From Symbiodinium sp. CCMP2592 (Eukaryota; Sar; Dinophyceae; Suessiales; Symbiodiniaceae): a stretch of 64,000 bases of DNA. Below, piece after piece: positions 265-57,025 of this stretch; the stretch's first letter is position 1; each line of letters begins with the position of its first letter. Under the pieces are notes generated by a model, which was not told the DNA's origin, did no database searches, and saw only the letters and a program-made list of their open reading frames with translations. Where the stretch lies: positions 615,875-679,874 of the forward strand of contig CAJNDT010003435.1 in assembly GCA_905221615.1 (NCBI GenBank), given 5' to 3'. A program made the position numbers and the translations under genes.

Positions 265-410
265 CAGCAGCAGCAGCAGCAGCAGCAGTACTACTGCTGC
301 TGCTGCTGCTACCACTACTACTACTAGGAAGAAGAATAACATTAGTAATAACAGTTATAATAACAATAAGAATACCAATAATAGTCCACTTGAAGCGAGG
401 TCCGGATGAA
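3..410. mobile_element. Triplet-repeat palindromic insertion at E7 acceptor, copy 1
   Basis: A roughly 387-bp block of AGT/AAT-like triplets is flanked by a 13-bp direct repeat, aggtccggatgaa, at 3-15 and 398-410. The core is an (AGT)n(AGC)n run followed by (GCT)n(ACT)n, so it can fold back on itself. The repeat lies exactly across the AG|G acceptor of exon E7, so the downstream copy restores a complete acceptor and exon. Copy 3 carries the same insertion at 19,734-20,192; copies 2 and 6 have an uninterrupted site. I infer a target-site duplication made by insertion. The insertion is seen directly; its mechanism is unknown. Confidence 0.7.
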
Positions 411-463
411 GGAGTGGGCCGAGCCCTCAAAGGCTCCGGAGCGGTCGGGAGACACAAAGAAGA

Positions 464-679
464 GAAACTGGGCTCTTGTTGGAGGCTTGATTGGAGGGTT
501 TAGGGCTTAGGGTTTCCTTTGAGGCTCCCTTGAAGGGTTGCTGTAAGGGTTACTCTCGGGTTTGGGGTCTGCGGTTAAGGAACTTATTTTAAGTTGCCAT
601 GCTAGGGATCTAGAATGAACAACGTCGTCTTCTTATTCTGGCAATTGAAATTAATTCCCTAACCCTAACAAGAACCCAG
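464..679 (+). mobile_element. Introner-type intron E7/E8, copy 1
   Basis: This intron starts gaaactgggctcttgtt and ends ctaacaagaacccag, so its ends are inverted repeats (CTGGGYTCTTGTT against AACAAGAACCCAG). The four bases GAAA lie on both sides, consistent with a 4-bp target duplication. Splicing at A|GAAA and CAG|GAAA gives the junction KKRKRPDEE, the same protein as copies 2 and 6. The donor is therefore GA, not GT. The intron is a member of a repeated family also seen at 856-990 and outside the array at 56,916-57,025. Confidence 0.65.
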
Positions 680-855
680 GAAAGAGGCCGGATGAGGAGG
701 AGGTTGAGGAGCAAGGATCAGCCGCAGAGGGACCCCGTGCGCTGCAGGAATGGGCGGCAAAGCCCGCGAAGTTGCCGCGGAACTGGAAGACCCAGTTGGC
801 TCGGGAGAAGCTCAAAGGAGAGCCAAAAGTCATCGCTGACACGTTTACACACAAG

Positions 856-990
856 GCTGGGTTCTTGTTAGGGATTTCAGTTCAGGGTTTAGGACCCTGC
901 TACGGAAAACCGTATTTGCTATCGATCCGTGTATAATGGACACTTGAAGTAACCCTCTTAGCAATAACCCTCTTAGCAAGAGCCCAGAAG
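856..990 (+). mobile_element. Introner-type intron E8/E9, copy 1
   Basis: It begins AAG|GCTGGGTTCTTGTTAGGG and ends gcaagagcccagAAG|GTG. The TIR matches the preceding intron and AAGG flanks both ends. Joining gives FTHKVTLVTSDALEE with a GC donor and AG|G acceptor. The internal sequence (gctatcgatccgtgtataatgg) is shared with the equivalent introns in the other copies. Confidence 0.65.
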
Positions 991-2756
991 GTGACACTGG
1001 TGACCAGCGACGCCCTGGAGGAGGTCCGCCTGCTGGAAAAGACGCTCGTGGCGGACCAGGCTGTCCTGTTCAAGAAGAAGCTGTTCGTCCGGGCGTGCAG
1101 GGCGGCCGACTTCTGCTTAGCACTGGGAGCCTATGAGAAGGATGGCCAGTTTTTTGCTGAATACTCTCACATTGTCGCGAATCGCGGCAAAGTTGGCTCT
1201 CTCGTGCTGGCGGCTTGGCTAATCCCTAACCCTAAACCCTGGACCGTACACGCGCCAAACCTTGAGGTGGCTCGGGACAAAATGACCGGGCGCATCGTAG
1301 GCTTCGTCCATGCGGAAAAGGGCAAAAAAGAGCTGCTGATTGGCCATCTCAAGGCGACGTGTTTCAGACTTTGGGCTTCGGGCCCGGGTATCAGGGCTTG
1401 GGGTTTCGGGTTTCAGGTTTCGGGGTTTGGCTTTCGGATTAGAATAATGATCCTACGAAGGGTTCCATAAGAGAGTTTAAAGTTAGGGTCTGGGGCTTAT
1501 AGGGTTTTGGGCTCCGGATTTAGGGTTTATGGCCTTAGGGGTTCAGGGTTTGACGCTTATGGCTCGGGCTCCCGGGCTCAGGGCTTCGGGTTTGCGGCTT
1601 AGGGCTCAAGGGCGAGGGTTTAAGAACGACCACGTGAGCGCTGTTCGGAAGCAATCAGCCACTCGCATTGTTCCTGACGGTTCCTTACTCGAAGTATAGT
1701 TTAGCGAGTGCCCAAGTTCAGGGTTCTTGAGGGTTCCTGTTTAGTTGCAAGTACAACATAGTTTACAGCCAAAGCATGATTTATGAGGCCCCCTATACAG
1801 GAACCCTAAGGGGAGTAACTATGACTCTCTTAAGGGAGCCCATTTAGCTGCCGCCGGCGCCCGGCGAGGTGCACAATGACCATCAGGGCAAAGGCGTAGG
1901 AACGCTGTTGATCCGCGCTGCCGAGGCTCAGGCCGGGGCAGATTACTATTTTTAATTTCGATGATGACTGTGATTATTATTATCATTATTCGTATCGCTA
2001 ATATTAGTGTTATAATTAGCGTAGTTGTGGTTGTAGTTGTAGTCGTAGCAAGTAGTAAGTAGTAGTAAGCATCGGTGCCAGTGTCAGTATCAGTATCAAT
2101 AGTAGCAGCCGCATTCCTGGTTGTCGCTGTCATCATCTTGAGCATTGTGATGTGGGTTTGTAATCATCATCATCCTCCTGGTGTTCAAGCATCCGATAAG
2201 CCTTTGCGAAGCAATCTTCTTCGTTGCTCTTGCAATTGCCACGAGGGCCAACAAGAAGTTTGCAAAACACACATGAAGCCCGGAGCAGAGCCCAGACATG
2301 AGCAGCAGTGTACATTTCGCAGGCACCTGGACCCTCTTCCAAAGCCCTCTGCTCAAAGAAAGGATCACATGGGGCGTAGTAACAGGCTTATAATGCCTGG
2401 GGGACTCAACTTTGCTTCCGAGGGCCAGGGAGACTCCACGTCGGACATGTTATTATGATCTTGAAGCCCTGCCTGCCCGTGGAGGCGTTGACCGCAGGAT
2501 GGACTTTCGACTCCGTGGCAGTACGTGTCCTATACGTGAACTCGCCAGCGCAGCAGAAATTTTTCCGATGCTTGGGCCGCCACGACTTTAGGGTTTAGCT
2601 TTAGGGTTTCGGGCTTAGCGCTTAGCTTTTAAGGCTCAGTTCTTAGGGTTTATTAGGGTTTAGTTATTAGGTTTTACGGTTTAGGGCTTACTTTTAAAGG
2701 TTTAGGGCTGATCAGGAGAACAAGGGAAAACTGCGTTCGGATCCTGTCGTCGCTCT

Positions 2757-4790: not shown

Positions 4791-4805
4791 GTTTGGAGGA
4801 TCCTA

Positions 4806-4928
4806 CTTAAAGGTTCATGGGACTTAGTAACTATGGTTATAAATAAATTAACTATAATACTTGTAATTGGATATAACCCCAGTTAGGGTACTTATAACTG
4901 TACTTACTAAGTCCCATGAACCCCCAAG
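4806..4928. mobile_element. MITE, family M1 (TA target duplication)
   Basis: Ends cttaaaggttcatgggac and gtcccatgaacccccaag are inverted repeats that extend through acttagtaa. TA lies directly outside both ends. Length is about 123 bp with no coding sequence. About ten further copies are scattered through the window; TA duplications and short TIRs recall Tc1/mariner-derived MITEs. Confidence 0.75.
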
Positions 4929-5251
4929 TAGACCCTAAACCCTAAACCCTATAGATCCCTTTTAAGGAACCCTATAGATCCCTTTAAGGAGCCCTTTCAG
5001 AGATACCCCTCTGTGCTCGACGAATCGTCGAGAGCCGGAAATGCAGTCCTGCTACCTCTGTCTGCATTTTCCGTGTCCATAGCCGCTGAAGGCAGCTCAA
5101 GCAAGCCAGAACCGTTTGGTCGCATGCTTAAGTGCATTGCAATACACAGCCGGAGAAGCAGCAGCTTCCGTTTCTGTTGTTCAGATTGGTGCGAAGAGTG
5201 TACTTCTCCCTCCGAACTTTTTTCTAATCACTGACTCCCTGAAACGTCGTC

Positions 5252-5680: not shown

Positions 5681-6930
5681 ATCCGTACTTGAGTTCGGGT
5701 CTCATGCAGACACCTTCTGTTTAGGCTCATCAACGACATGAACAACAACAAACCACTTCAGGTCTTTGGTCTAAGCCACAGACGCACAACTCTTGAAACA
5801 GGAACAGTTCTTAGGCACTCTCGGGAATAATTAGCCTCCCTGGCGCTAGCCGTGCAAATACTGGCAACGATGAATTATGTTTACTCTGATGAGTTGCAGC
5901 CTACGGCCGAAATCACCGGCCGTGCTTAAGCTGCAATACATACGAACAGCGGTTCCTGAGCCTTTATCACATCACATCAGTAAATGTTAAGACAACACTA
6001 CAGGTCCTAGCCTCCACACAAAAGAGAACAGAACCACCGTGACAGTGCGAAAACCATCAGCACAAAATTTTAGAAATGCGAGTATATAGTTTTACCAACG
6101 TGGACCTGAAAACATATGCTTTCTAACTCTATTGCCAGGCCCGTCAGGGCTATTCAGAATATGCGCCGCAACCACACCACCATGCACGCTATCATCGACG
6201 TCGCACCACAACCGCCACCACGCAGCCCCCACCCTCCCTCCACCCGCCCCACCAGCACGAGTACCAACATTAACACCAGTGCGAACACCAACATCAAAGC
6301 CAACACGAACACGACACCACCAGCCGGCGGCGGCAACATCAACACCAACACCGACATCGGATATCAACATCAAGTCAGCATCATCCTCACGGTCGTCCCC
6401 ACTGTAATAACCAACACCATCGCCATCATCATCATCATCATCATCATCAGCATCATCATCGAGGTCATCATCATCACCAATACCATTAGCATCAGCATCT
6501 CCATCATCATCTATTTAATCTACATCATCATCATCATCACCACCAAGAGCAGCATCATCACCACCACCATCTTCATCACCAGCAACACACACAACAACAC
6601 CCTTCTTCTTTTACTATCATCACGGTCACCACCGCCGTCGTGATGTTCAACATCATGCTCATTGATATTCCCATCGTGATGATGATGATGATGATCATCA
6701 TCATCCTCATCATCAGTGACATCTTCTTCTTCATCATCTTCATCATCACGTTCTGATTCGACATCCTGTTTCTCATCATCATTTCCAGCTTGGTCTTGTT
6801 TGTCACTATGTGCACTGCTTACATCACCCTGCAAAGGGCGATCGTTTTCTTTACCACTTTTTATATAGACTCGCATCACTTCATTTTCCTTCTTTTCGGT
6901 CGTCTGCAGAGTGGATCGCGGTGCCGCGAG
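5681..6930. other. Intergenic spacer between copies 1 and 2
   Basis: About 400 bp after the stop are nearly identical to the sequence after copies 2 and 5 and may be 3' UTR. The remainder is low-complexity: a C-rich CACCA stretch, then (ATC)n-type triplets from about 6,410 to 6,790. No promoter motif, spliced-leader acceptor or start exon could be assigned. Confidence 0.5.
6410..6790. repeat. (ATC/CAT)n triplet repeat upstream of copy 2 E1
   Basis: Imperfect CAT/ATC triplets with an inverted GAT stretch near 6,680-6,700. Units upstream of copies 3 (about 16,110-16,450) and 6 (about 32,350-32,495) hold similar but different-length tracts. Long open frames here on both strands (poly-I, poly-D/H) are artefacts of the triplets. 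Confidence 0.75.
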
Positions 6931-7150
6931 GAGGAAGCCTGGGTCGCCGCCGCGCAGGTCGACCCAAAGTGGAAGTCGCGCCTTGGTCTTGTAGCAAGGC
7001 CTAGGATGCATTCGGTTATGACGTGCCATCGGTGCCCCTTCTGGAAACGCTCCTTCATTATGTTCTAGCTGTTACTTGCACACTCTTCGTGCTGTAAGGC
7101 GCGGGCAGACGGCGCTGTACTTTGCCGCTGCACGGCAGGCGGGCTTTGAT

Positions 7151-8037
7151 GTGATGGCGGCGGCGGGATGGTTTTGGAAGGTTGAGCAAGAAGTTCAGCA
7201 GAATCATCGGCTAGTAGTCGCGATTGCCGGGATCATCACGGATGTTTCAGGCCTTGGCAACGTGAACTGGACCACCTGGGCCCCAACCTTTTTGACCAGT
7301 GGTTACTGTCGGATTTGGATGCAGGTACCATCGCCACAATGAGCTGGATGTGTTAGCAGGGTTTTGACGGTGCCGTAGAGGCATTCGGGACAACACTAGC
7401 GCCAAAGGGTGGGGCTGGGAAGTGTGATGATGGGGTGTCAAGGCTATGACAAGCTGGGGACATAGCAAAAACACACCACCTACCGATGCTGCCAAAGAGG
7501 TCTTGTCTTGCAGCCCAAAGCAAGCTTCTTGAAGGGTCCCTGCACAGGATCCAATCGACGCTGAGAAAATTTGTCGATTCCTGATGAGGCCTGGTGCTGA
7601 CGGGTTGAACGATGGGGTCCGGGAGCATGCTGCATCAACGGTTCATCCGAGTTGTTCCGGAAGAGCCCTCTTCTAGGTGCAGTTGGGGTCTGTCCTAGCG
7701 GTTACATCAGCCCGAACTCGTACACATCTTAGTCTTGGCCTTAGCCGAGCCCTGTTTTCTGCCACGTCTTGACCTCTGTAGGGCTGAAGTAATTGCCAAC
7801 ATGATTCCTTGGTGTTCTTTCAGTATACCCATACTACAATGTACGTACCACGAAAGCCTGGTATGCATAGTAAGGCCCCTATAAGAGCCTGTATTGGAGC
7901 CCGTCGCACAGACTCCCAAACCCCTTAGATTAAGAAATATACCTTGAATTATGCTAGGGATCTCCCTGCAATAAAGGTAGTCCTTAATTTAGGGGTTGGA
8001 GTCTCTGGGCTAACACCCAATATCTGAGCAGCCCAGT
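7151..8037 (+). other. Intron between E2 and E3, copy 2
   Basis: Open but unconfirmed stretches occur at 7,151-7,330 (includes NVNWTTWAP, also found in copies 3 and 6 near 17,055 and 32,975). A conserved small exon here is possible, but the frame shifts between copies. A palindromic element (family M6) lies at 7,906-8,009. Confidence 0.4.
7906..8009. mobile_element. Palindromic element, family M6
   Basis: Left end cacagactcccaaacccctt pairs with right end aaggggttggagtctctg-like sequence. Related copies: 17,654-17,754, 34,056-34,159 and 43,058-43,161. The last has longer, cleaner arms (aatatcccttaat and attgagggatatt). Confidence 0.5.
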
Positions 8038-8087
8038 CGAATGCGCGTGCCGGCAACAAAGAGGGATGACTGGGGCCAAAGCCCTTT

Positions 8088-9577
8088 GTTGCTCGGCTGT
8101 GTGGCAGTTGGGTTCAGGTTTCCTATGGTTGAAGCCATCATGGGACTTAGTCACTGTAACCCCAAGTAAGGTGTTCATGTTCATACTTTCTATGCCGATG
8201 TCTCGTGGTCCCAAAAGGACAGACTGGGTCGGGGGCTTCTACGAGTCGTGTGCTACACTGATCTTCCCTGAGGTTGTTGTCGTATTGTACAGTGGTTCGA
8301 GGCCCTTGATTTTAGTGGTCGCTTTCGGCTAGGATCGTCAATGCCCTGCGGTCCTCTCACACCTCGGCCCTTAAACCCTTTGGGCTTTCAGCTCCAAAAT
8401 CCTACAAAGCACCAAATTATTGAAGCTTATCTAGCCACCTTTTTATCAAATCAAGCTTTGTCCTCAGTTATCTTGATTTCTCTTTCTTTGTCTCCATGTG
8501 TCTTCCTTCTTCATTTTTGGCGTTCGTGGTCCTCTCTGCCTTTATGACTTGTCCTTACTAGCTCTTTTATCCCATTGTTGCTCGCATGCGACTTCGTGAT
8601 CTTGCCTCAGAGCCCCAATCGGCCTTACCCTACTCCCAGTCCTCACCGGCCTCAGCCCCGCCGCACAGTCCGAAGCCCCACAACATAAAACCCAATCCGA
8701 GGGTAACTAGGGGCCCCAGAACTACGGGCCTTGAAAACGTAGCAGGGCTTTAAGCCACGCATGTCTGGCAAACAGGGCCAATAAGATCCTTATCACATCT
8801 TACTGATGCATCTTGTTGAATCTGATGAATCCTTGTTTGAAGTCTTGGAAAAGCTATTGTGAGCCTCATGAATCCTTATGGAAGGCCTTTCAAAACTCAA
8901 ACAATCGCCGCGCTTCCGCAGGGCTCCACGCTGCACCCCGGATCGAGGGCTTACCTCCCTCGCACCCCCAACAGGACTCCAGGGGGGCAGACTGCGCCCC
9001 CTCACCGAAAACTGTGAACGCCTTGCCAATCTTTGGAATTCTTTCGCAGTCTTTTTGGATGTTTAAGGCCTCGTAGAGTTGATTTGAACGCTCTCCATGC
9101 TTGCAAAGCCACATTAATGTTGTTTGAAAGTCGTTTCATGTTTAAGTGTTTGTTTTCTGTTTGAGTGTCTTTTGTCTGGCATCTTTTGTGCAAGCGTTTC
9201 TTCACTTTCCTTGTTTTGTCATTTGTTGTCTCTATTATCATTTGGAATCATTTGTTTGCTTAAGTTTTCAAGCCCCGAGGCTCGAGGTATAAAGGCCCGA
9301 GGTTTGAGAGCCTTGCAAAGCCCCAGTGACAGGGAATGTGCATCAGGACCAAAACATCCCGCTAGAGACTTCCTCACCCAAAACTGCCAGCCTCTGCACC
9401 AGACGGCTGCCATGGCAGCAGGCAACAGAAGCGACAGTTGCACTGCCATTGCAATAGTCGTGATCATCATCATAGGGACCGTAAAAGCACTACCAGCAAG
9501 AGCAAGACTAACAATAACACCAGCGAGGGCAATGGTCTAGTCCGTAAAGTTCGGTTCGACGTGAACTTGCCGATCAG
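8088..9577 (+). other. Long intron E3/E4, copy 2
   Basis: About 1.5 kb. It contains half of an M1 element (catgggacttagtcactgtaacccc, 8,138-8,165) and the open stretch FYADVSWSQKDRLGRGLLR near 8,185, whose counterpart in copy 3 is YYADVSRSQTDTPASGLL near 17,935. It could be an alternative exon. The sequence around 9,410-9,480 is triplet-like. No other feature seen. Confidence 0.4.
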
Positions 9578-10482: not shown

Positions 10483-10657
10483 GACGCTGGGCTCTTGTTA
10501 AAGGGCTTCCTTTCAAGGTTCTTTTATAGGGCCTATTGGCAGGGTTCCGGGTTAAGGAATTTTGTTTGAGCCGTTGTGATAGGGATCTACAGTATCAGTA
10601 AATCATATGGTCTCCTTATCGTGGCATTTTTTATTTCAGTCCCTATCCAGAACCCAG
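10483..10657 (+). mobile_element. Introner-type intron E7/E8, copy 2
   Basis: Begins GACGCTGGGCTCTTGTTAAAG, with a GA donor after AAGAAGC, and ends agaacccag before GCAAGAGACC. It shares the internal motif gggatctacagta with the intron at 56,916-57,025. The joined frame is SKKRKRPDEEQ, identical in effect to copy 1. Confidence 0.6.
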
Positions 10658-10848: not shown

Positions 10849-10960
10849 GCTGGGTTCTTGTTGGGGAGTTTAGTTTAAGTTGCCGTCCATACTACTAGGG
10901 AAAGCCATATTCGCTATCCTTCCCTGTATTATGGCCACGTAAAGTAAACTCCGCCAGAAG
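10849..10960 (+). mobile_element. Introner-type intron E8/E9, copy 2
   Basis: GC donor (AAG|GCTGGGTTCTTGTT) and AG|G acceptor (cagaag|GTCACG). The left TIR is intact; the right TIR has decayed to cgccag. Direct repeat AAGG at both borders. Confidence 0.6.
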
Positions 10961-13598: not shown

Positions 13599-14922
13599 AG
13601 TTCCCTATAAAGGGCTTGTAGCCTAACCCTAAACCCTGACGGGCTCTGCGTTCCCTCCGAAGGCCGCCACGATCCCATATGCAAGCTCTCTGAGTCACAA
13701 GCATGGGGGTTTGGGGTATATCAGAATCTTAGTACATAGGGGGTTTGGGGTATATTAGAATCTTAGTACATAATTGTTTTGGGGTATATTTTAATCTTAG
13801 TACATAGGGGTTTGGGGTTCATTACGGTATGCAGGTGCGTGAAGATGGTCCGCCGTGCTCAGCATGCCCCTGAAGCGCCAAAGGAGAAGATCAAGATCGA
13901 GCCATATGCTCCTCGGTTTTAGCAGATATTGGATGTGGTGAGCAGGCTCCCTCTTCAGCTCGTTCAGGATTTAGGGTTTAGGGCCCTGGAAACTCCATGA
14001 CCTTGCAGCACGAGGTGCAAACGGCTTTGGCGCCGTGGCACTACAAGGGGCTGCGCGTGAGAAAAACGATCCGGTGCTGCCGCATGGTGGAGCCTCCTAA
14101 ACGGGACGATGACTCTGCGACGGATCCGGAGATGCCTGAGTTGATCCCGGTCACGCCGAATTGGTTGTACTCACCGCGGGCTCCCAAGCTGTTTCTTTGC
14201 TGGCAGTGCTCTTGCTGTACTAAGATACTGTGCTCCAAGGTCTCCTGAAGAATTTGTTGAGGTGCAGGGCATCGACTTTTGAATTGTCTGCCGACTTGGA
14301 TGTTTCAATTTCAAGTTTCACTGACCTTGCCGAAAAGATGGGACAGCGCCGCAAGTTCGGACTATTGCTAATTGCGCTGGATCAGGTCAGGCAGTTTCAA
14401 CATTCTTTCAGCCTTCGTCACAAGTGTGTCACCTCTTGGTGAGCAAGAGCAGAACACGACTTCGTACCATCTGGTACCAAACCCTATGAACCCTAACCCC
14501 CCCACACAATAAGCACCAGCAGTACGGAGGGGTGAATGAAGCTGCCCACAGCTCCGGCGCGTGCTTTCGAAGCCTTGCCCTGTTACTATTCCCTAAGGCT
14601 CCATGTGCCCATGTAGTATATACTTAGGCCTTACAGTACCCATATCGGGACCCCCTTTTAAGGCTTAAGTATTCATTATAAAGGCACATGGAGCCTTTGG
14701 GATTACTATCTATTACTAGCACTAGTACTATTGCTGTCTCTATTGCTACTAGTCTTAGCATGAGTATTACTTTTACTGATTGTTAATTATTAAGTACCAT
14801 TACGATTACTATTACTGTTACTCTTTGTCTTCTTATTGTCCTTCTTATTACTATTGCTATTCTGAGTATTCCTAGTAATGTGACTATTAGTGCAAGTATT
14901 TGTTGCTGTTTGGAGGATCCTA

Positions 14923-15042
14923 CTTAAAGGTTCATGGGACTTAGTAACTATGGTTATAAATAAATTAACTATACTTTTAATTGGATACAACCCCAGTTAG
15001 GGTACTTATAACTGTACTTACTAAGTCCCATGAACCCCCAAG
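14923..15042. mobile_element. MITE, family M1, copy 2
   Basis: Orthologous to 4,806-4,928, flanked by TA on each side. Confidence 0.75.
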
Positions 15043-15790
15043 TAGACCCTAAACCCTAAACCCTATAGATCCCTTTTAAGGAACCCTATAGATCCCTTTA
15101 AGGAGCCCTTTCAGAGGTACATACCCCTCTGTGCTCGATGAATCGTCGAGAGCCGGAAATGCAGTCCTGCTGCCTCTGTCTGCATTTTCCGTGTCCATAG
15201 CCGCTGAAGGCAGCTCAAGCAAGCCAGAACCGTTTGGTCGCATGCTTAAGGGCATTGCAATACACAGCCGGAGAAGCAGCAGCTTCCGTTCCTGTTGTTC
15301 AGATTGGTGCGAAGAGTGTACTTCTCCCTCCGAACTTTTTTCTAATCACTGACTCCCTGAAACGTCGTCATGGCGACCCGGAAGACGAAGAAGGCACCTG
15401 CTGCCTGGCTCGTGGCGGCAAGGAAGGCTGGCACAAATCTCCAGGATCCGATTCCCTGCTGGGATTTACCTCGTCTTCAGGGTTTAGGGTTCAGGAGTTT
15501 AGGAGTGTGGAGGCTTAGAAACAACTATCCTGCTCTGAATCCTAGGGCCTCTATGTTAGAGATCAGGCAGACTTGCAAAGTAGCCGGGGCTACAGTCACG
15601 AGTTTAGATCCTTGAAGCCTACGATTTAGGAGGCTTGAGGGTTTAGGGTTTAGGGGACTGTCAGGACGTCCGGCTGCTCCTCAAGATCCGTGATGGAATA
15701 CAGGAGCTGGGAAGTGCGGTGCTAGGGATTCGCAACGTCTTTTGCGACGCTGAGCAATTGAACCGTTTTAACTTGCAGTGCAAGTCTTGA

Positions 15791-17754: not shown

Positions 17755-18138
17755 AAAAACCTAAACCCTCAGCTGCCCAGTCGAGTGCGCGTGCCGGCAA
17801 CAAAGAGAGATGACTGGGGCCAAAGCCCTCTGTTGCTCGGCTGTGTGGCATCTGTGTTCAGGTTTCCGGTACGTTTGTCCATGATGGGACTTAGTAACTC
17901 TAACCCCAATCAGGGTACTTGTAGTCTGACGTACTATGCCGACGTCTCCCGGTCCCAAACGGACACACCGGCGTCGGGGCTTCTTTACCAGTCGTGGGAT
18001 GTGCTGGGCTCTTCTCAGACGGCGTACAGTGGTTCCGAGGCCCCTGTCGCTTCAGGTAAGATCGTTCATGCGGCGCTCTCAAACTCCCAGCCTTCAACCC
18101 TCAGAGCTGTTAGCTCCAGAATCCTACAAGACACCAAA

Positions 18139-18242
18139 TGGGAGTTTCCGAAGATAGGGGACCCAAATATAGTACCCTAAACAGTCGGATCCTTCTTATA
18201 AGACCCCTCAAATAAGGTACCCCTAATTTTCGGAAGCTCCCA
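18139..18242. mobile_element. MITE-like element, family M2
   Basis: Ends tgggagtttccgaagatag and attttcggaagctccca, about 104 bp. AA occurs on both sides, a possible 2-bp duplication. Absent from the equivalent intron of copies 2 and 6. Confidence 0.65.
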
Positions 18243-19733
18243 AATCTTATTGAAGCTTATTCGATCATGTTTTTGTCAAGTCAGCTTCTGTCCTCGGTCC
18301 AGAGCTACGGGCCTTCAAACCTCGTAGGGCTCCGACCCTGTCATGTTTGTCACACAGGACCCTAAACCCTCAACCTAGGACCCTAAACCGTGGGACCCTT
18401 GTAAATCCTTCTTGACATGGTTCTCAAAAAGTTTGCAACTTATAAACTAGGATGCCCAGTAGTACCCTTATTCCTTGCTTGGCATCTTCTGCACAAGCTT
18501 TGTCATGACGTTCCTTCTTTTGGCCAATAGCTGGTAACTCGCGTTGTCTCAGCTTGTCTTCGTGTTGTCCAAGCTTGTCTTAACTTGTCGTCTTAATTGA
18601 GGCTTGACCTCCCCAAAGTCGAGGACTTTAAAGGGTTTAGGGTATAGGGTTTAGGGTTTAGTGTTTGGAAGGGAGGTGCAACAGGAAGGATTCGCTTTGT
18701 TCCCGAAACAACCGCCTAGAGGGAGCCTAACCCCAAAACTTCGGCCGCTAACAGTCGTAACAATGATAACGCATGACAGAAGCAAGAGTTGCAATCACTG
18801 TAGCAATAGTAGTGATCGTGATAAGGGCTCTAACGGCATTATTATTTATCAGCAAGCGCAAAAAGCAAATGCACCAACCAGGGCACTGTGCTAATCCATG
18901 AAGTTCTGCTCGGCATGATCTTGCCGCTCAGGTTCTTCGCAGCTAGACAAGGACACACAGCGCGACTGGGATGAGCCTTTAGGGTAGAGTGTGGAATCGG
19001 CTGCAATCTCGGAATACGGCTTCGAGATATTTGGAGGTTTTGTCGGTGTTATGAGCGGAGACTTCCTTGACCCTAAATGTTTGCGCATGCATGCAGAAGG
19101 TGTGGACCTGCGTACTTTGAGTCATGAAGCGTAGCTGAGGCTGTGTGCGTACTTCGTTGAGAAGTTGGGCATGAATGTCCATCAAGTGGACAGGTGGGGG
19201 GAAACTCCCATGTTTTATGCGATGGAAGCCAAGAAGACCGAGACGGTCACTTGGTGGCTCTTAATGTGCCGAGTGGTAAAACTTCTTGATGAGTCATTTT
19301 GGCTTGAACCCCGAACCCTAAACCTCAAACTCCCACATACCCTAAGCCCCAAACATCTCAATACAGTCTTAAGCCCCGAAACCCCAAACTGCCAACATCC
19401 AGGTCATATACCTGCTGAAGAAGGGTGCTTCGCTCGGGGTGAACAACCACAACTTCGAGTCGCCAGAGAGCCTTGCACCGGTGGAGGTGGCTCGCGAGCT
19501 GCAGGCAAGAATCAGAAAAGGGGTCGGAAGTTCAGGGTTTGGGGTTTAGCATATTGGGTTTATGGTGTAGGAGTCGGAAGAGTTGGTAAGGGTAGTCCTT
19601 TTAGTATGTACCTCGAAACCCCATTCTGCTCATTAGGGCTCGAACGTAAGCCACACCCCAAACCCAAACCCGAAACCTCAAGCCCTAAACCCCAAACCCC
19701 AAACTCCATTCCAGTCAGTCAGGCCCCTCTTTC

Positions 19734-20245: not shown

Positions 20246-20455
20246 GAAACTGGGCTCTTGTTGGAGGCTTCCTTGGAGGGTTTAGGGCTTAGGGTTTCCT
20301 TTGAGGCTTCCTTGAAGGGTTGCTGTAAGGGTTACTCTCGGGTTTGGGGTCTGCGGTTAAGGAGTTTATTTTAAGTTGCCATGCGAGGCATCTAGAATGA
20401 ACATCTTCTTATTCTGGCAATTGAAATTAATTCCCTAACCCTAACAAGAACCCAG
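20246..20455 (+). mobile_element. Introner-type intron E7/E8, copy 3
   Basis: Almost identical to 464-679. GAAA direct repeat, GA donor, right TIR ctaacaagaacccag. Confidence 0.65.
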
Positions 20456-20631: not shown

Positions 20632-20751
20632 GCTGGGTTCTTGTTAGGGATTTCAGTTCAGGGTTTAGGACCCTGCTACGGAAGACCGTATTTGCTATCG
20701 ATCCGTGTATAATGGACACTTGAAGTAACCCTCTTAGCAAGAGCCCAGAAG
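20632..20751 (+). mobile_element. Introner-type intron E8/E9, copy 3
   Basis: GC donor; right end ttagcaagagcccagaag. It lacks a 15-bp tandem repeat (taaccctcttagcaa) present in copy 1. Confidence 0.65.
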
Positions 20752-23421: not shown

Positions 23422-24777
23422 AGTTCCCTTTACAGGGGTCCAGAAGGATTACTATAAAGGGCTTGTAGCCTAACCCTAAACCCTGACGGGCTCTGCGGTC
23501 GCTCCGAAGGCCGCCACGATCCCATATGCAAGCTCTCTGAGTCACAAGCATGGGGGTTTGGGGTATATCAGAATCTTAGTACATAGGGGGTTTTGGGGTA
23601 TATTAGAATCTTAGTACATAGTTGTTTTGGGGTATATTTTAATCTTAGTACATAGGGGTTTGGGGTACATTACGGTATGCAGGTGCGTGAAGATGGTCCG
23701 CCGTGCTCAGCATGCCCCTGAAGCGCCAAAGGAGAAGATCAAGATCGAGCCATATGCTCCTCGGTTTTAGCAGATATTGGATGTGGTGAGCAGGTTCCCT
23801 CTTCAGCTCGTTCAGGATTTAGGGTTTAGGGCCCTGGAAACTCCATGACCTTGCAGCACGAGGTGCAAACGGCTTTGGCGCCGTGGCACTACAAGGGGCT
23901 GCGCGTGAGAAAAACGATCCGGTGCTGCCGCATGGTGGAGCCTCCTAAACGGGACGATGACTCCGCGACGGATCCGGAGATGCCTGAGTTGATCCCGGTC
24001 ACGCCGAATTGGTTGTACTCACCGCGGGCTCCCAAGCTGTTTCTTTGCTGGCAGTGCTCTTGCTGCACTAAGATACTGTGCTCCAAGGTCTCCTGAAGAA
24101 TTTGTCCAGGTGCAGGGCATCGACTTTTGAATTTTCTGCCGACTTGGATGTTTCAAGTTCAAGTTTCACTGACCTTGCCGAAAAGATGGGACAGCGCCGC
24201 AAGTTCGGACTATTGCTAATTGCGCTGGATGGGGTCCTGCCAGGTCAGGCAGGTTCAACATTCTTTAAGCCTTCGTCACAAGTGTCTCACCTCTTGGTGA
24301 GCAAGGCAGAACACGACTTCGTACTATCTGGCACCAAGCCCTATGAACCCTAACCCCCGCAAACAATAAGCACCAGCAGTATGGAGGGGTGAATGAAACT
24401 GCGCACATCTCCGGCGCGTGCTTTCGAAGCCTTGCCCTGTTACTGGTCCCTAAGGCTCCATGTACCCATGTAGTATATACTTTGGCCTCACAGTACCCAT
24501 ATAGGGACCCCTTTTATGGTTTACGTATTTACGATAAAGGTACATGTTGCCTTTGGCATTACTACCTCTTACTAGCACTAGTACTATGGCTGTCTCTATT
24601 GCTATTAGTCTTAGCATGAGTATTACTTTTACTGATTATGAATTGTTAAGTACGATACGATTACTGCTACTGTTACTCTGTTTCTTCTTATTGTCCTTCT
24701 TATTGCTATTGCTCTTCTGAGTATTCCTAGTAATGTTACTACTAGTGTAAGTATTTGTTGCTGTTTGGAGCATCCTA

Positions 24778-24897
24778 CTTAAAGCTTCATGGGACTTAGT
24801 AACTATGGTTATAAATAAGTTAACTATACTTATAATTGGATATAACCCCAGTTAGGGTACTTGTAACTGTACTTACTAAGTCCCATGAACCCCCAAG
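24778..24897. mobile_element. MITE, family M1, copy 3
   Basis: Orthologous to 4,806-4,928, TA on both sides. A separate right half of an M1 element (actaagtcccatgatcctttaag) follows at 24,979-25,001, next to the point where homology to the other copies ends. Confidence 0.75.
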
Positions 24898-25002
24898 TAG
24901 ACCCTAAACCCTAAACCCTATAGATCCCTTTTAAGGAACCCTATAGATCCCTTTAAGGAGCCCTTTAAGAACCCTTACTAAGTCCCATGATCCTTTAAGT
25001 AG

Positions 25003-25827
25003 CAGAAGACGCTCTCCCATGGTGAGCGGGCCTTGTGCGACGTGATGAGATCCCGCGCTCCCCACCGGCCCGCCTCGAGATCTGATGCTCAAAGTTTCTC
25101 TTTTAGGGTTTAGGGTATTGGGATTGGGGTTTAGGATTTAGGGGTTTAGGGTTTAGGGTATTGGGATTAGGGTTGAGGGAAAGGGTGGTTGCTTCAGTTG
25201 GTGAAACATGGTGGGTTGAGGGGCACATCGCCGACATCTGAGACCAGGCCCTAAGGTCTTGGAGCCTAGAGCTGTTCACGGCCCCCGGAACTTGCGCCAC
25301 ATCTCCTCTCGCTGGGATCACTGCAGAAGCCATGGCAGCTCATCCACCTCCACCGCCGGATGGGCAAAGCGTCCTGCTCTTACGAAGGCCGTGAGGTCTT
25401 GGCTACTTCGGACTCCCTCCCCACACCCATAATTATCTGTGTGCAGCCGCCTAACGCCAAAATCCTAGACGCCCATACTCAAATATTGTTGTCTGATTTT
25501 TTTGTGCGGAGCGTGTGACGTGGCTTACTGTGTGGCATAACACCAAACCCTAAACCCTGAAGCAAGGCAATCTCCTCGCCAATAAAGCACGGGGCCTGGC
25601 TTCCTGCGTCGAGTGGCAGTTGCCTTCATCATGATACAAGCATGTGGGTCTGTACATGTCTGTACATCCAACTCTGGTGCCAATTGGTGCAATTTAGGGG
25701 CCTTAATCATTTGAGTAGGGGCTTTGGCGTGGAGCTGAAGCTTAACAAGAGAAGTTGGCGCTGGGTTTTACTTTCCTGGTCCCCTGAGGTCTTGTTTGTG
25801 AAACCCGAAAACCATGATGCCATGATG
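25003..25827. other. Unassigned segment between copies 3 and 4
   Basis: Not homologous to the array. An exon-like open stretch (KTLSHGERALCDVMRSRAP) follows an AG at 25,003. TTTAGGG-like repeats lie at 25,106-25,165. A proline-rich open stretch MAAHPPPPPDGQSVLLLRRP starts at 25,332 and ends at TGA. None can be assigned. Confidence 0.3.
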
Positions 25828-25931
25828 TGAGTGGTTGTCAAAATTAGGGTCCCTTTTTGGGTCCTTATTATATTACGGCACCTAATATTTAGGGTACCGA
25901 AAAAGGGGGCCATAATTTTGACAACCACCCA
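25828..25931. mobile_element. MITE-like element, family M3
   Basis: Ends gtggttgtcaaaattag and ataattttgacaaccac; centre contains tattacggcacctaat. Related elements at 48,445, 49,955 and 58,513. Confidence 0.65.
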
Positions 25932-25976
25932 TATGCAAGCCTGAACAGTTGCATCCGTAAGGTTCCTTGTTAGTAT

Positions 25977-26079
25977 TGGGAGTTTCCGAAAATAGGGGAC
26001 CCTAATATAGCATCCGAAACAGTAGGATCCTTATTTTCAGGACCCCCAAATAAGGTCCCCTCATTTTCGGAAACTCCCA
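25977..26079. mobile_element. MITE-like element, family M2
   Basis: Ends tgggagtttccgaaaatag and cattttcggaaactccca; AT flanks both sides. Only 45 bp after an M3 element. Confidence 0.7.
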
Positions 26080-26384
26080 ATTCGACGTAGTCTTATGATT
26101 AAGGTTGTCATTGCCACGAGGGCCAACAAGAAGTTTACAAAGCAAACATGAAGCCCGGAGTCTTGTGCTCATACCCAAGAGCCCAGACATGAGCAGCAGT
26201 GAACATCTCGCAAGCGTTAGGCACCTGAACTCTCTTCCAAAGCCCTCTGCTGAAAGGAAGGATCACGGGGCCTTTTAACTTGGGGGACTCAACTTTGCTT
26301 CCGAAGTCCCGGGAGACTTCACGTTAGACATGTTATGATCTTGAAGCCCTGCCTGCCCGTGGAGGCGTTGAGCGCAGGATGGGC

Positions 26385-27968: not shown

Positions 27969-28069
27969 TGGGAGTTTCCGAAAATAGGGGACCCGAATAC
28001 AGTATCCTAAATACGAGGATCCTTGGTATAAGGACCCCAAAATGAGGTACCCCTAAGTTTCGGAGGCCG
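27969..28069. mobile_element. Decayed M2 element
   Basis: Left end tgggagtttccgaaaatag intact; right end truncated after gtttcgga. Confidence 0.5.
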
Positions 28070-29520: not shown

Positions 29521-29642
29521 GCTGGGTTCTTGCTAGGGAATTTAGTTTAAGTTACCGACCATACTAGGGAAAGTGCTCATATTTGCTATCGATCCCTTGA
29601 TTGTGGTCACTTAAAGTCAGTTCCGTAACAAGAGCCCGGAAG
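29521..29642 (+). mobile_element. Introner-type intron E8/E9, copy 5
   Basis: Left GCTGGGTTCTTGCTAGG, right gtaacaagagcccggaag; the TIRs are among the best preserved in the array. AAGG borders both ends. Confidence 0.65.
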
Positions 29643-30269: not shown

Positions 30270-30470
30270 TTGAAACACCCCATGAGCGACGTCGCCTTGA
30301 GGTGGCCAATCAGCAGCTCTTTTTTGCCCTTTTCGGCGTGGACGAAGCCTACGGTGCGCCCGGTCGTTTTGTCAATGTACGAATACTCGCTAAAACATTG
30401 GCTGTCTTTCTCGTACGTGCCCAAGGCCAAGCAGAAGCCTGCCGCCCTGCACGACCGGACGAAGAGCTTC
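30270..30470 (-). pseudogene. Inverted E10-E9 fragment in copy 5
   Basis: The minus strand reads KLFVRSCRAAGFCLALGTYEKD (written here only to FCLALG as the core), then SEYSYI directly joined to DKTTGRTVGFVHAEKG and ELLIGHLK. The E9/E10 intron and 16 flanking codons (VANRGK to VLVAR) are gone. The start of the E10/E11 intron is retained (aaggcgacgtcgctcatgg), so this is not a processed cDNA copy. An inversion with an internal deletion is the simpler reading. Confidence 0.7.
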
Positions 30471-35700: not shown

Positions 35701-38277
35701 CTTGCCGATCAGGTTCTACGCAGCTAGACAAGGACACAAAGAGCGACTGGGATGCGTCTTTGGGGTAGAGTGTGGAAGGGGCTTCGCACGGCTTCAAGGC
35801 ATAGTTGGAGATATTGTCGGGATTATGAGCCGGAACCTACTTTAATCCTGAAAGTTTGCGCGCGCAGAAGGTTTGGATCCGTGTACTTCAAGTCATGAAG
35901 TGTAGCTGAGGCTGTGTGCATACTTCGTCGAGAAGTTGGGCATGAGCGTCCATCAGGCAGACAAGTGGGGCGAGACCCCCATGTTTTACGCGATGGAAGC
36001 GAAAAAGACCGAGACGGTCACTGGGTGGCATTTTCTGAAACCTGTTGATGCCCCTTGTGGTTCTATAGACTTACTTATTGATATGTCAGTTTGCCTTGAA
36101 CCGAAAATCCTAAATTCCCCAAATCCAGGTCATATACCTCCTCAGGCAGGGTGCGTCGCTCGGAGTCAACAACAAGGGCTTCCAGTCCCCAGAAAGCCTC
36201 GCACCGGTTGAGGTGGCTCGCGAGCTGCAGGCGAGAAAAGGGGTCGGAAGAGTTAGTAAGGGGCCTACAGGGTTTAGGGTTTAGGATTTAGGATTTTAGG
36301 GTTTAGGGTATATAGTCCCCGCTGGTACTAACTATATACAATGCCCCCTTCATAGTACCTCTGTCGTCACTGATGATGTCCGCTTGTAGTCCTTGTACAA
36401 AAACCACATTGTACTTCTCAAGGCTTTAGTGCACCCCAAACCCTAAGTCCAGCCCCACGCCCTACACCCAACCCAAGCCCTACGCCCCAAACCCTGACCC
36501 CTAAACCCAGCCCTAAACCCTAAACCCCAAACCCTAAACCCCCAAAGCCCTATTCTGCTTGTTGAGGCCCCTGTTCAGGCCCGGATGAAGGAGTGGGCCG
36601 AGCCATTGAAGGCCCCGTCTTCGCAGCCACAGCCGGCAGACTCAAAGAAGCGACGCTGGGCACTTGTTAAAGGGCTTCCTTTCAAGGTTCTTTTATAGGG
36701 CCTATTGGCAGGGTTTCGGGTAAAGGAATTTTGTTTGAGCCGCCATAATAGCGATCTACAGTATCTACAGTATCAGTAAATAATATGGTCTCCTTATTGT
36801 GGGATTTTTATTTCAGTCCCTATCCAGAACCCAGGCAAGAGGCCGGATGAGGAGCAGATGGAGGAGGCTCAGGAGCAAACATCAGCTGCGGAAGGACCTC
36901 GAGCACTTCAGGAATGGGCAGCAAGACCTGCGAAGTTCCCAAGGAATTGGAGGACCCAACTGGCACGGGAGAAGCTGAAATGCAAGCCGGAAGTCATCGC
37001 TGAAAGCTTCACTCACAAGGCTGGGTTCTTGTTACGGAATTTACTTTAAGTTGCCGTCCATACTAGGGAAAGCCATATTTGCTATCCTTCCCTGTATTAT
37101 GGCCACGTAAAGTAAACTCCGCCAGAAGGTCACGCTCGTGACCACCGACGCCCTCGAAGAGGTCCGAGGCCTCGAAAAGACACTCGTGGCCGAGCAAGCC
37201 GACCTCTTTAAGAAGAAGCTATTTGTCCGGGCGTGCAGGGCTGCCGACTTTTGCTTGGCCTTGGGGGCCTTTGAAAAAGATGGCGCGTTCTTTACGGAGT
37301 ATTCCTTCATTGTCGCCAATCGAGGGAAGGTCGGCTCGCTGGTGCTGGTGTCTCGGCTAAAGCCCCTAAACCCCAAACCCTAGACCCTACACGCCAAACC
37401 TTGAGGTTGCTCGGGACAAAAAGACCGGGCACGTCGTAGGCTTCGTCCACGCCGACAAGGGCGAGAAAGAGCTTGTGATTGGCCACCTCAAGGCGACGTC
37501 GCGCATGTGGTGTTTCAGACTGGTTTTAGGTTTGAGGTTTAGTGTGTGGGATTATTGGAACAAGGTTCCTTCAACGTGTTCTATAAGGGAGTTTAAAGTT
37601 CGGGTTTGTGAGAGTAGTAGGATTGCTCCTGGGGTCCCCCATGAGCCCCAAGCTCACGTATCAGGCCCATGGCAAGTCTTATGAAGATCAGCCAAACTGC
37701 GCGGGAGGGGCTTTCTACCCTGAACCCTCAAACCTAAACCCTAAACCCTAAACCCTGAACCCTGAACCCTCAAACCTAAGCACTAAGCCCTGAGGCCCTC
37801 AAACTCTAAACCCTGAAACTTCAAACCGTAAACCCCGATCTTGAGCTTCGTTTCAAGAGACGAGCGACTGTCGGATGGCACAGGGAGTTTAGGGTTCGGG
37901 GTTGAGGGCTTTTGGGCTTCGGATATAGGGTTTAGCGCTTAAGGCTTAGGGTTCAGGGCTCAGGGCTGGTGGGGTTCGGGGTTTGGGGCTTATGGCGCAA
38001 GGGTTAGGGTTTAGGGCCGACCATGTGAGCGCTGTTTGGGGGCAATCCTCCACTCCTATGGCTCCTGAGAGTTCCTCTATTTCAAGTATAGTAGAATCAA
38101 CACCCAAGTCTCCAAGTTCAAGGTTCTTGAGGGTTGCCTGTATAGTATACAGCCAAGCCATCTTTCATAAAATGCCCCTATATAGCTGCCTCCGACGCCC
38201 GGCGAGGTGCACAATGATCATCAGGGCAAAGGTGTGGGAACCCTGTTGATCCAGGCTGCCGAAGCTCAGGCCGGGTT

Positions 38278-42210: not shown

Positions 42211-42772
42211 TAGTCCCTCAAATCGGATCCCCAGCATGCCAAGCCCTGAAGCCCTCACCCACAAAGTCACGCGACTACGTTCGAACTCGAGACGATTTCC
42301 AAGCCGAGAGTCTAGTCAGCCCTTTCGTTAATACTGCTGCTGTTAGTGATACTTCTGTTCGCAATATTCTTAATAGTTTCTTCCTCTTGTTTGATATATT
42401 TTCTGCCATTAGTATTCTTACTACTGTTGAAACCGTAAACCCGAAACCCTAAACCTTCTGAGGACAAGTGTTGGGGATCAAGCCGTGGGCTTTGTGGTGC
42501 AGCCTCCATGTTGTGGTCGTCTTCCGAGTTACTCAGCCCACGGCCGCTACTACTGAGACCTAAATAATTACCTATATGCTGGGGGTTCCTGAGTCTATTT
42601 GTGCTATACTGGGCCCCTCTATTATAGTACCCTTAAAGATCCCTAAAAGAAGCCCTTGTAGACTCCTTTAAAGGAACCCTAATTCTATTACGGCCCTTAT
42701 ATGACGAATGCAACCGTAACCCCACAAGCCCAAGACTACGGGGATCCTCAACTGCCTCCTTACTTAAAGGTT

Positions 42773-42882
42773 CATGGGACTTCGTAAGTAGGGTTAGAAG
42801 TAAAGTAACTACAGTTATAATTACTTATAACCCCAATTGAGGTACTTATAACCCTATTTACTAAGTCCCATGATTCTCCAAG
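42773..42882. mobile_element. MITE, family M1
   Basis: cttaaaggttcatgggactt at left, aagtcccatgattctccaag at right; TA on both sides. Confidence 0.75.
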
Positions 42883-43057
42883 TAGATCTCGATGGAGAGA
42901 TTTGGCCGTTGCCGGTGATATAATTTACTTAAGGGTTCCTTTAAAGGTGGCCTTTAAAGGGCTACTATAAGGGATCTCTAAGGACACCAGAGTCTAGGAG
43001 CCTGAAAAGATTTTCCCGGAAAGCACTGAAGAGAGCAGATAGGTTGACAGAACAGAT

Positions 43058-43165: not shown

Positions 43166-43845
43166 GGTGGGGAGCCCTGAACACGTAAACCCCTAAGCAA
43201 ACAGGCCTACTCCCTAACCCTCAAACTCTTAACACCCTAAAGACCTCAAGAACCTTAAGCCCTTATAGCCCTAAGTCCTACGAACCCAAAAACCTCAAGA
43301 CACTGCACCCCTCATGTAGGGTTCGGGAGTCAAGTTGTTGTCATGTTGCAACGATGGCTATGTCCGTAGCTATATCATACTCTTTTCGGTCTCAAGCTAT
43401 GTGTTTTCTCCCACCTATTTGCCTAGGACTGGAACGTTATCCCTGCATAGATGTCCCAACCTCTTTGACCGGTGGCCACCATGCCGACCCTTAAACCCTG
43501 ATTCCTAAACCTAAGCGAGAAACCTAAACCCTAAACGCAGAACCCTAATCCCACTACCAGGCCCTCGCCTTAAGCTCCACAATCCCAGGCACCTGTGAAG
43601 TTTCTCAGCCGTGGGTAGGGTATCGTTCGTCCTGGGCAGAACATTGGACTTAGGCGCTTGACTAACTGGTAAAACTATCACGGTTAAGGGTTTAGGGTTT
43701 ATAGGGGTTTGGGGGTTTAGGGTTTAGGGGTTTAGTGGTTTAGGGATCTGGGGCCTATTAGGGTTTAGTATTTGGGGTGCAGTCCGTGTTTTGTCAAGAA
43801 CATACTCCCCCAAGGCATATTCCAAGCCTTGAGGCCGTGGCGGTA
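43166..43845. other. Non-coding stretch with heptamer repeats
   Basis: CCCTAAA-like repeats near 43,490-43,560 and TTTAGGG-like repeats near 43,685-43,770. No gene supported. Confidence 0.5.
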
Positions 43846-43963
43846 CTTAAAGGTTCATGGGACCGAGTAACTATGGTTATAAATAAGGTAACTATACTTA
43901 CAAAATAACCTCAGTTAGGGTACTTAGTATAACTGTACTTACTAAGTCCCATGAACCCCCAAG
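43846..43963. mobile_element. MITE, family M1
   Basis: cttaaaggttcatgggac / gtcccatgaacccccaag, TA both sides. Confidence 0.75.
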
Positions 43964-44144
43964 TAGCGCTCAAGCGGAAATCCAGGGATGGTTTTGAGTT
44001 TGCTCTTTGGGGATGGCTACGGTCATGCCTAAACCCGAAACCCTAAACCTTAAACGCTAGTTTCACGAAAAGGCCCATTGCACTAAAAAAAAAAACAAAA
44101 ACCTAATTTCTAAGCCCTAAACGCTAAACTTGAGCCGGGTGCAG

Positions 44145-45426: not shown

Positions 45427-45577
45427 TATATTATGAATATTATTCAACTATTACTGAGTGGGGACCGTACCCAAGTCATAGGTTCATTCAAGATGCAAGG
45501 CAAGGAAAGCTCCCCCTAAACCCTATTTCCTAAACCCTAAACCGCGGCAACCTAAGAGGCCCGACAATGATGAGCTA

Positions 45578-45798
45578 CTTAAAGGATCATGGGACTTAGT
45601 AAGTAGGGTTATAAGTAAAGTAACTACAGTTATAATAACTTATAACCCCAGTTAGGGTACTTATAACTGTAATTACTAAGTCCCATGAACCCCATTTTAG
45701 AACACTTATAGATCTTTAAGGAACCCTATTTATAGAACCCTATAGTACCCTTAAAAGGAGCCCTAAAGCCTACTTACTAAGTCCCTTGAACCCCCAAG
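45578..45798. mobile_element. MITE family M1, composite
   Basis: A left end cttaaaggatcatgggac at 45,578 and a first right end gtcccatgaacccc at 45,680-45,694, which is cut short. A second complete right end lies at 45,770-45,798 and is followed by TA. It may be one element with a later insertion or two overlapping ones. Confidence 0.65.
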
Positions 45799-46664: not shown

Positions 46665-48234
46665 TGCTCGCTTGTGTAAGGCAGTAGGCACTTGGAGGAC
46701 ACACGTGTGATCTTACGCAAGGTGGCCTAGAGGCCAAAGCAGCAGTACAGATCCCGGCCACAACACCTTCACCTTAAACCCTGAACCCTAAACCTGCAAA
46801 ACTCTACAATGCTAAACCCAACCTTGGCCCTGAATAACCTCCCTATAGGGTTCCTTATTATGGTTTCTTTATATAAGTCCTTAAAAACGTAGGTTCTTCG
46901 GGGTTAAGGAAAAGCCCTAGTATAGGGGGGCCTGAAGAACTCGCTTTTCGTATTTCCGTACGACAAGTGTATAGTCAACAGCTGGTCTGTACCCCCAAAC
47001 CCCTCGTATTCTTATGATTAAGGCCCCTATACCGTAAAGCTGTTGTAGAATTCTAGAACCCTTGTAGAGCCCTTGAAAGCAAGCTTCAGTCAAACTTTTT
47101 AGAAGGATCCCTTAATTAACACCGAACTCTACAGCTCCAAGGACCCCCAAAGCTGTACACTTCCTCAAAGTAACACATTGAAAAGGAACAAAACTATAAA
47201 TCCGAAAAGCCATAAAAAGCCCTACCCTAAACCCTCAAAGCCCTAAGCCCTTACCCCTAAACGCCCTAAACCCTAAACGTAAAAGCCCTACAATCCCTTA
47301 ACCGACCCAGCTCGGGCCAGATGCCGGTCCGAAAGACCTTCATCGACTACAGGCGCTTGACCCCCCCGCCCCGACTTCAAGGGTATAGGGTTTAGGGGTT
47401 TGGGGCTTTAAGGTTTAGGGTTTTGGGGTTTAGGGTTTAGGGTTCCCTTCCAGATTCGAACAGTGGATCCGACCGTCAATGGAAGAGTTCCTGCTAGGGT
47501 TCCTTTGCAGGTTCCTGGGAGTCCGTTGTGTGGGGTTTGGGGTGATGTTCAACATCAGTGAACTGGGTTGTGCTTTGGGATAATTTTTTCCCCTATTTCC
47601 TTAAAAAGGGAACCTATTCAGAAATAATTTTCAAAGGGTTTAAAGCACAACTTAAACTGCGGCAAACGCGGTGTTTACTGGATGCGGCTTTGGAGGCCCA
47701 AAAACCCCAAAGCTGATTTAGACCTCTATTTCCGGTAGACTCCACAAGCCGTAAACTTCAAAGCAAGGCTCATAGTGTCGTAGTGGTTGTGGTTTGGGAG
47801 CACTTAACAGCTTCAGGGCTTTAACGATCTGGAATGTCTGATTCCGGCTGATGGTGTTGCCGAAGGTGTGCACAGTAGATATTTCAGGTTTGTTTGGGAC
47901 CGTAGAAAAAGCACGTAAACTTGAAGTTTTGCACGACGGCAGTAGAGTGTATGCGTAGATACCCAGACCTTCCAACATCTCTTACCTGTCTTGAATAAGC
48001 AATCTACCTTAAACTATAGTAGGATCCCCAATATGATTTAGGGCGGGTATACTCCTTAATTAAAGGATTTTGAAAAGTCTGGGTACTCTTGGGGGGCTCC
48101 TGCTGAGGGTTTCCGTGGTCAGAGCTGCGCAGAGCCATGTTCTCAGAGAAATCTGTTTGGCAACGGAGAAGCTGAGAAAGGGCTTGGGGTCTGACGGGTT
48201 TAAGGTTTAGGGTTCGGGTTTAAGGCTGGGTTTA
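46665..48234. other. Non-coding stretch, heptamer repeats
   Basis: A possible exon MPVRKTFIDY at 47,321-47,352 has GC after it but is too short to trust. TTTAGGG repeats at 47,380-47,450. An imperfect palindrome lies near 47,985-48,090. No gene recognised. Confidence 0.4.
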
Positions 48235-48363
48235 CTGGGAGGATCATGGGACTTAGTAAGTAGGGTTATAATGGTTATAAGTACTGTAATTGGGGTTATA
48301 AATAAAGATAGTTGTAGTCACCTTACTTATAACCCTACTCACTAAGTCCCATGATCCTTTAAG
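48235..48363. mobile_element. MITE, family M1
   Basis: ctgggaggatcatgggac / gtcccatgatcctttaag; TA on both sides. Confidence 0.75.
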
Positions 48364-56915: not shown

Positions 56916-57025
56916 CTGGGTTCTTGTTAAGGAACTTAGTTTAAGTTACCAGAATGGGGATCTACAGTAAACAATCTGGTTTCCTTATAATGGTAACTTA
57001 CATTAAATCTTGAATTTGAGCCCAG
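56916..57025 (+). mobile_element. Introner-type intron outside the array
   Basis: CTGGGTTCTTGTTAAGGAAC at left and gaatttgagcccag at right, AAGA on both sides (4-bp duplication). The internal motifs ggggatctacagta and ttataatggtaactta match the array introns. Flanking sequence is unrelated to the ankyrin-GNAT gene, so the element has moved independently. Confidence 0.65.

Follow-up and report, generated by a model that had tools for sequence, protein, structure and literature searches.

Introners described in dinoflagellates

The closest described relatives of the introns reported here are the introners of Symbiodinium microadriaticum, for which Gozashti et al. (2022, PMC9860276) describe terminal inverted repeats (TIRs), a 4-bp target-site duplication (TSD), a 3' splice site carried by the element, and a 5' splice site drawn from the TSD; an example of their family 1, at 86725-86839, is 115 nt long. 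Recent intron-making transposable elements have also been described in further dinoflagellates with intron-rich genomes (Roy et al. 2023, as cited in PMC11453091), introner elements are given for 3-5% of genes in the Symbiodiniaceae groups covered by the Effrenium paper (PMC11114475), and Prorocentrum has them as well (PMC10666404). In Amoebophrya, introner elements have inverted repeats of 8-20 nt and direct repeats of 3-5 nt at the exon-intron borders, and form a hairpin (Farhat et al. 2021, PMC7789003).

The window analyzed here is a stretch of 64,000 nucleotides (C3435:615875-679874) from a Symbiodinium sp. CCMP2592 assembly of 1,098,105,373 bases in 5383 contigs, the whole of which was searched. 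Its introners share with those described for S. microadriaticum the genus, the 4-bp TSD, the TIRs, the carried 3' splice site, and the TSD-derived 5' splice site, the last in the first window intron and at six further loci. The 115 nt of the published family 1 example equal the 111 bp of the present element plus 4. The second window intron also draws its AG from the TSD, a mode that PMC9860276 reports for other families. As the same anatomy has been published, the kind is already known. The initial annotation had suggested that the family, by its TIR sequence and GA/GC donors, may be undescribed; it may instead turn out to be the published S. microadriaticum one. The papers matched by a literature text search for forms of the TIR sequence were unrelated by title. 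The families of Roy et al. are the same kind of element in other species, likened here by description only. The Amoebophrya elements are similar in their inverted repeats, the direct repeats at their borders, and their folding into a hairpin, but their splice dinucleotides are described as varying widely and their inverted repeats as not specific to a family, whereas the introners here share one TIR and have G[ACT]...AG|G boundaries. They were not assigned to an Amoebophrya type with highly variable non-canonical splice motifs, as every introner boundary that was modelled has the form G[ACT]...AG|G. The principle has been published; the present analysis adds a young subfamily, copies used in both orientations, and a contrast between young and old copies. 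It is a genome-wide worked example, with very recent copies, of a coral symbiont in which a DNA transposon probably gives rise to introns.

Two probable introners in an acetyltransferase gene array

Positions 1-40000 of the window hold a tandem array of ~10-kb units carrying acetyltransferase exons. In unit 1, two predicted introns on the forward strand each consist of an element with 13-bp TIRs (CTGGGYTCTTGTT...) and one copy of its 4-bp TSD. Intron 1 (464..679, 216 nt, GA...AG|G) is made up of the left TSD copy, GAAA at 464-467, and an element at 468-679 with TIRs CTGGGCTCTTGTT and AACAAGAACCCAG; the second GAAA copy, at 680-683, is retained in the exon. Intron 2 (856..990, 135 nt, GC...AG|G) contains an element at 857-987 with TIRs CTGGGTTCTTGTT and AGCAAGAGCCCAG, flanked by AAGG at 853-856 and 988-991, the right copy of which supplies the AG. 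Reading the sequence directly confirmed the flanking repeats on both sides of each element, and with them the common ends and 4-bp repeats that the initial annotation had pointed out (GAAA in units 1 and 3, AAGG at the second intron). The TIRs among the intron ends that it quoted are present, but the right end of 857-987 is unlike the quoted one. Its proposal that the donor G comes from the duplicated flank and the AG from the right TIR or flank fits both introns. The surrounding exons, all on the forward strand, lie at 406..463 (the model starts at an internal ATG, and the protein continues upstream), 680..855, between the two introners, and 991..1209, which runs into the GNAT domain and is followed by a modelled intron of 57 nt (1210..1266) outside the introner family. 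The product of the exons on either side of the elements is a GNAT acetyltransferase (Acetyltransf_7, 41.3 bits against a cut-off of 27).

Further copies, again on the forward strand, occur along the array. In unit 3, intron 1 (20246..20455, 210 nt; element 20250-20455, GAAA) and intron 2 (20632..20751, 120 nt; element 20633-20748, AAGG) are consistent with the TSDs of unit 1, as is the intron 2 element of the rearranged gene copy in unit 4 (29522..29639, AAGG). The first introns of unit 2 (10483..10657, 175 nt), an older copy whose model retains a GA donor, and of unit 5 (36652..36834, 183 nt) contain elements at 10487-10657 and 36656-36834 with non-matching flanks, GACG/GCAA. In the second introns of unit 2 (10849..10960, 112 nt, GC...AG|G, left TIR present) and unit 5 (37020..37128, 109 nt), the right TIR has decayed and was not recognizable in the sequence as read. 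The rearrangement of unit 4 lies near 29-30.4 kb, and the unit holds an inverted piece at 30271-30373. Because the units are repeated in tandem, the gene copies in the window count as two independent insertions and the rest as paralogous copies, while a third insertion lies at 56916..57025 (forward strand, AAGA at either side, 83.8% identity to a 111-bp consensus). The latter had been taken for the same element; it is a family member with AAGA duplications, but its right TIR has decayed to AATTTGAGCCCAG and its TSD permits no exact G[ACT]...AG excision. The window contains 24 13-mers that differ from the TIR by no more than 2 mismatches, compared with a mean of 4.28 after shuffling, and none of 100 shuffles reached 24.

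When the element and one TSD copy are removed, the acetyltransferase frame is open in all four modelled units (1, 2, 3, and 5; the rearranged unit 4 was left out of the modelling). The ratio dN/dS is 0.09-0.18 in all six pairs of these units, and the differences between units 1 and 2 fall 14, 16, and 60 at the three codon positions. Intron lengths vary freely across units 1, 2, 3, and 5, being 216, 175, 210, and 183 for intron 1 and 135, 112, 120, and 109 for intron 2. Two database proteins, P0001 (330 aa) and P0002 (339 aa, from a 1603-bp contig), join both junctions without an insert; P0001 may derive from a gene model, whereas P0002 probably derives from a transcript because its contig is short. 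These observations bear on the reading that the elements are an ordinary, unspliced MITE family whose genic copies mark pseudogenes or sit within larger introns. The 56916 copy, with no suitable splice sites, would suit such a family, but purifying selection spans both elements in four paralogues, the frame is preserved even where intron lengths differ by amounts not divisible by 3, and database proteins, including P0005 (see below), join the junctions. We consider an unspliced family very unlikely.

A genome-wide family of short inverted-repeat elements

Exact 13-bp TIRs occur 4,172 times in the genome (2083+2089), compared with 93 (51+42) for a reversed control pattern. Perfect TIR pairs number 305 with a gap of 65-95 and 43 with a gap of 96-126, while the reversed controls gave 0 and 0. 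From these we read 90 pairs, namely 50 of the 305 in the shorter class and 40 of the 43 in the longer one. An exact 4-bp TSD was found in 47 of the 90 (30/50 and 17/40; permuted mean 1.5), 5-bp flank identity in none, and 43 had no exact 4-bp TSD; among the first 50 pairs, the flanks match over 3 bp in three more and over 6 bp in two. The genome-wide paired ends and 4-bp flank repeats foreseen in the initial annotation are thus present, including copies outside the acetyltransferase family. Around early-listed single TIRs, for which a partner was not required, 20 stretches of 10 kb were also inspected: the chosen TIR had a partner and flanks duplicated over exactly 4 bp in 5 and over 5 bp in 1, and in the remaining stretches the partner was absent or flanks of that length did not match. 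That so few single TIRs have a partner and matching flanks suggests that many copies have decayed. MITEs are short, non-coding elements of high copy number with TIRs and a TSD of fixed length. The present element is MITE-like in its TIRs and in the fixed length of its TSD (4 bp in 47/90 and 5 bp in 0/90), and differs from MITEs generally in that part of its copies appear to act as introns.

Seventeen of the first 50 pairs have at least 97% identity to the 111-bp consensus, and there are at least 29 identical full-length 111-bp copies genome-wide, a lower bound, as 40 of 2425 candidates were scored in the consensus search. By their identity, these copies are judged to be very recent. Each matches its own opposite strand at 86%, so that the element is nearly palindromic and presents the same ends in either orientation. 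One near-identical young copy (L042) has inverted flanks (TTCAATA / TATTGAA) and not a direct 4-bp repeat. The telomere-like motif TTTAGGG occurs in two or more units inside the element in 7 of 40 long copies (L086-L125); the young consensus already contains AGGGTTT, and telomere-like repeats are scattered through the window. Viral contigs were also scanned, with 7 stretches matching the TIR plus AAGG, a count that carries no chance baseline.

How an insertion could become an intron

The introns in the window are very probably introners, that is, inserted copies of a short DNA element that is close to a full palindrome, presumably non-autonomous, and flanked by a 4-bp TSD, with splice sites coming from the element and the target. 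This was also how the initial annotation had read them, and the reading is borne out by a dispersed TIR family, its 4-bp TSD, the copy number and recent copies, exact frame restoration, copies in unrelated genes, and donor letters drawn from the TSD, which are linked to open frames and to copy age. The young element, 111 bp long with the TIR CTGGGTTCTTGTT, would duplicate a 4-bp target on insertion. As its end reads ...CCCAG on both strands, each insertion would supply an acceptor. The 5' splice site, which may be GT, GC, or GA, would be formed by the two leading letters of the target copy where these read G[ACT] on the gene strand, as for GAAA in intron 1; less often, the donor would combine the last G of the target with the C of the TIR, and the AG would come from the right duplication, as for AAGG in intron 2. 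In sequence, the predicted splice sites combine letters of the element with letters of the duplicated target, which offers a rule, open to testing, as to which 4-bp targets could turn into introns. Since removing the element and one TSD copy restores the coding sequence exactly, an insertion would be nearly silent and could be kept as an intron whichever way it is oriented. We infer that the element moves by DNA transposition, with a transposase acting in trans on a non-autonomous TIR element. Removal is presumably by the spliceosome, given the G[ACT]...AG|G boundaries and the GC and GA donors that are known in these algae (PMC11453091). The ORF lists around seven loci, six of which have no close partner end, contained no autonomous partner or transposase. 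In the ORF list of L027, an uninterrupted frame of 938 aa (6703-9516, forward strand) is unusual here and perhaps of viral origin.

Excision dependent on a hairpin and not on the spliceosome, as proposed for the Amoebophrya introner elements, would remove the paired ends together. The young element does fold as one long hairpin (-72.6 kcal/mol), but in old copies with donor-giving TSDs the arms do not covary (42 double changes, 19 of them pairing, against permuted values of 38.2 and 16.9), two other old groups are also inside the permuted range, and the modelled boundaries are G[ACT]...AG|G. The covariation test indicates that the arms of diverged copies decay independently; hairpin-aided removal was dropped as unsupported, and we regard it as highly improbable.

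Copies in unrelated host genes

To gain insight into the genes that carry the family elsewhere, 20 junction frames were submitted to Pfam and the curated cut-offs were applied. Three (L031, L093, and L124) scored above the cut-off, 16 had no match, and the match of L072 was below it. The joined frame of L031 matches the MLH1 C-terminus at residues 47-109, with the junction near residue 64 (27.1 bits, cut-off 25); among matches to solved structures, MLH1 accounted for 5 of 6 (E about 0.001), and a pyridoxal kinase scored slightly higher. In L093, a protein kinase domain covers residues 7-120 with the junction near 62 (59.4 bits, cut-off 31.7). The L124 frame matches MIP (aquaporin-like) at residues 52-106, past the junction near 43 (32.3 bits, cut-off 25). 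MLH1-like and kinase domains that span junctions are a further argument against unspliced MITEs.

For L032, a dinoflagellate gene, the homologue P0005 crosses the junction at 81% identity with no insert, and P0006 and P0007 have additional residues near the same point. P0008 covers half of the query, at 98% identity, and follows the frame into the element (...RTSIWVLVKGFSVSYQNRDL), similar to the run ...RTSIWVLVKEASSSYRNRDL that raw L032 DNA would give. This suggests, from the protein sequences alone, that a related copy or genome has the element at that site. At these four loci and at two others (L050 and L063) whose coding appearance was judged by eye only, the modelled excision is GT or GC...AG|G in phases 0, 1, and 2, and a retained element would introduce in-frame stops. 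At these six loci and in the window units, excision leaves the predicted mRNA length unchanged. We conclude that family copies are predicted introns in unrelated genes, namely the acetyltransferase array, L031, L093, and L032. The element has the same orientation as the gene in L031 and L032 and the opposite one in L093 and L124. A single sequence family of introns in unrelated genes could also arise if spliced RNA were reverse-spliced into new positions, with no DNA transposition. The presence of TIRs, 4-bp TSDs that lie outside the element, the use of both gene orientations, and recent insertions at donor-less sites (see below) speak against intron copying of this sort, to which we assign almost no probability.

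Donor supply, open frames, and copy age

At the first 50 loci, frames across the junction were not longer than at random points (at least 100 aa in 14/50, compared with a control fraction of 0.277). Junction-spanning ORF length thus failed as a direct test of genic insertion, random points being equally open, and only strand- and TSD-specific frame comparisons proved informative. For these, a TSD was termed donor-competent when it gives G[ACT] (or NAGG) on a given strand, and both strands of the 47 TSD loci were scored with the TSD masked. The mean junction frame was 95.3 aa on competent strands (n=32) and 74.7 aa on the others (n=62), a difference that none of 20000 permutations reached. At the 22 loci where just one strand is competent, the means were 100.2 and 81.5 aa, with the competent strand longer in 14 and shorter in 7 (Wilcoxon p 0.009). 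Trimming the right flank of these paired loci by 1 or 4 nt, which give the same frame, yielded 100.6 and 100.2 aa, compared with 92.6-93.4 for other numbers.

Donor competence also varies with the divergence of the copies. Competent TSDs were found in 2 of 10 copies with an inner identity of at least 0.95, in 16 of 24 between 0.80 and 0.95, and in 9 of 13 below that; stated otherwise, 25 of 37 copies with diverged interiors and intact ends have a donor-capable TSD, compared with 2 of 10 young ones, and competent copies are the more diverged (permutation p 0.007). Most of the young copies lie at A/T-rich sites from which no donor can be drawn. The expectation that most hits would be spliced introns gains no support from these sites or from the frames of the first 50 loci. 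Both results would suit an unspliced MITE family, but the strand-specific effect on the frame goes against it.

Tentatively, and at slightly less than even chances, we propose that the element is still moving, with fresh identical copies landing mostly at unspliceable A/T-rich sites, while diverged copies with perfect ends mostly have a TSD that supplies G[ACT] as the donor to a coding strand, whichever way the element is oriented. This difference with age applies to copies picked for perfect TIRs, that is, with their ends retained, and a shift in target preference between subfamilies would look similar. If the proposal is true, selection for splicing after landing at random, and not gene targeting, would explain why surviving copies are introns, and the birth of introns and the sieve they pass through could be observed in progress.

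Other short inverted-repeat families in the window

Three other short repeats with TIRs were seen in the window. One (GGGAGTTTCCG...CGGAAACTCCC) is found at 18136-18243, 57923-58025, and 62670-62771, with relatives at 25977-26080 and 27969-28064; the copies at 57923-58025 and 62670-62771 have exact 4-bp TSDs, and AAAT was seen by eye on both flanks of 18136-18243. Another (...CATGGGACTTAGTAA...TTACTAAGTCCCATG...) has eight copies, three of them within the tandem units, with coordinates that approximate the true ends (4803-4931, 14920-15045, 24775-24900, 42760-42885, 43844-43966, 45575-45693, 48216-48367, and 50874-50997). A further repeat (GTGGTTGTCAAAA...TTTTGACAAC) has four copies, at 25827-25938, 48437-48547, 49955-50037, and 58509-58617.
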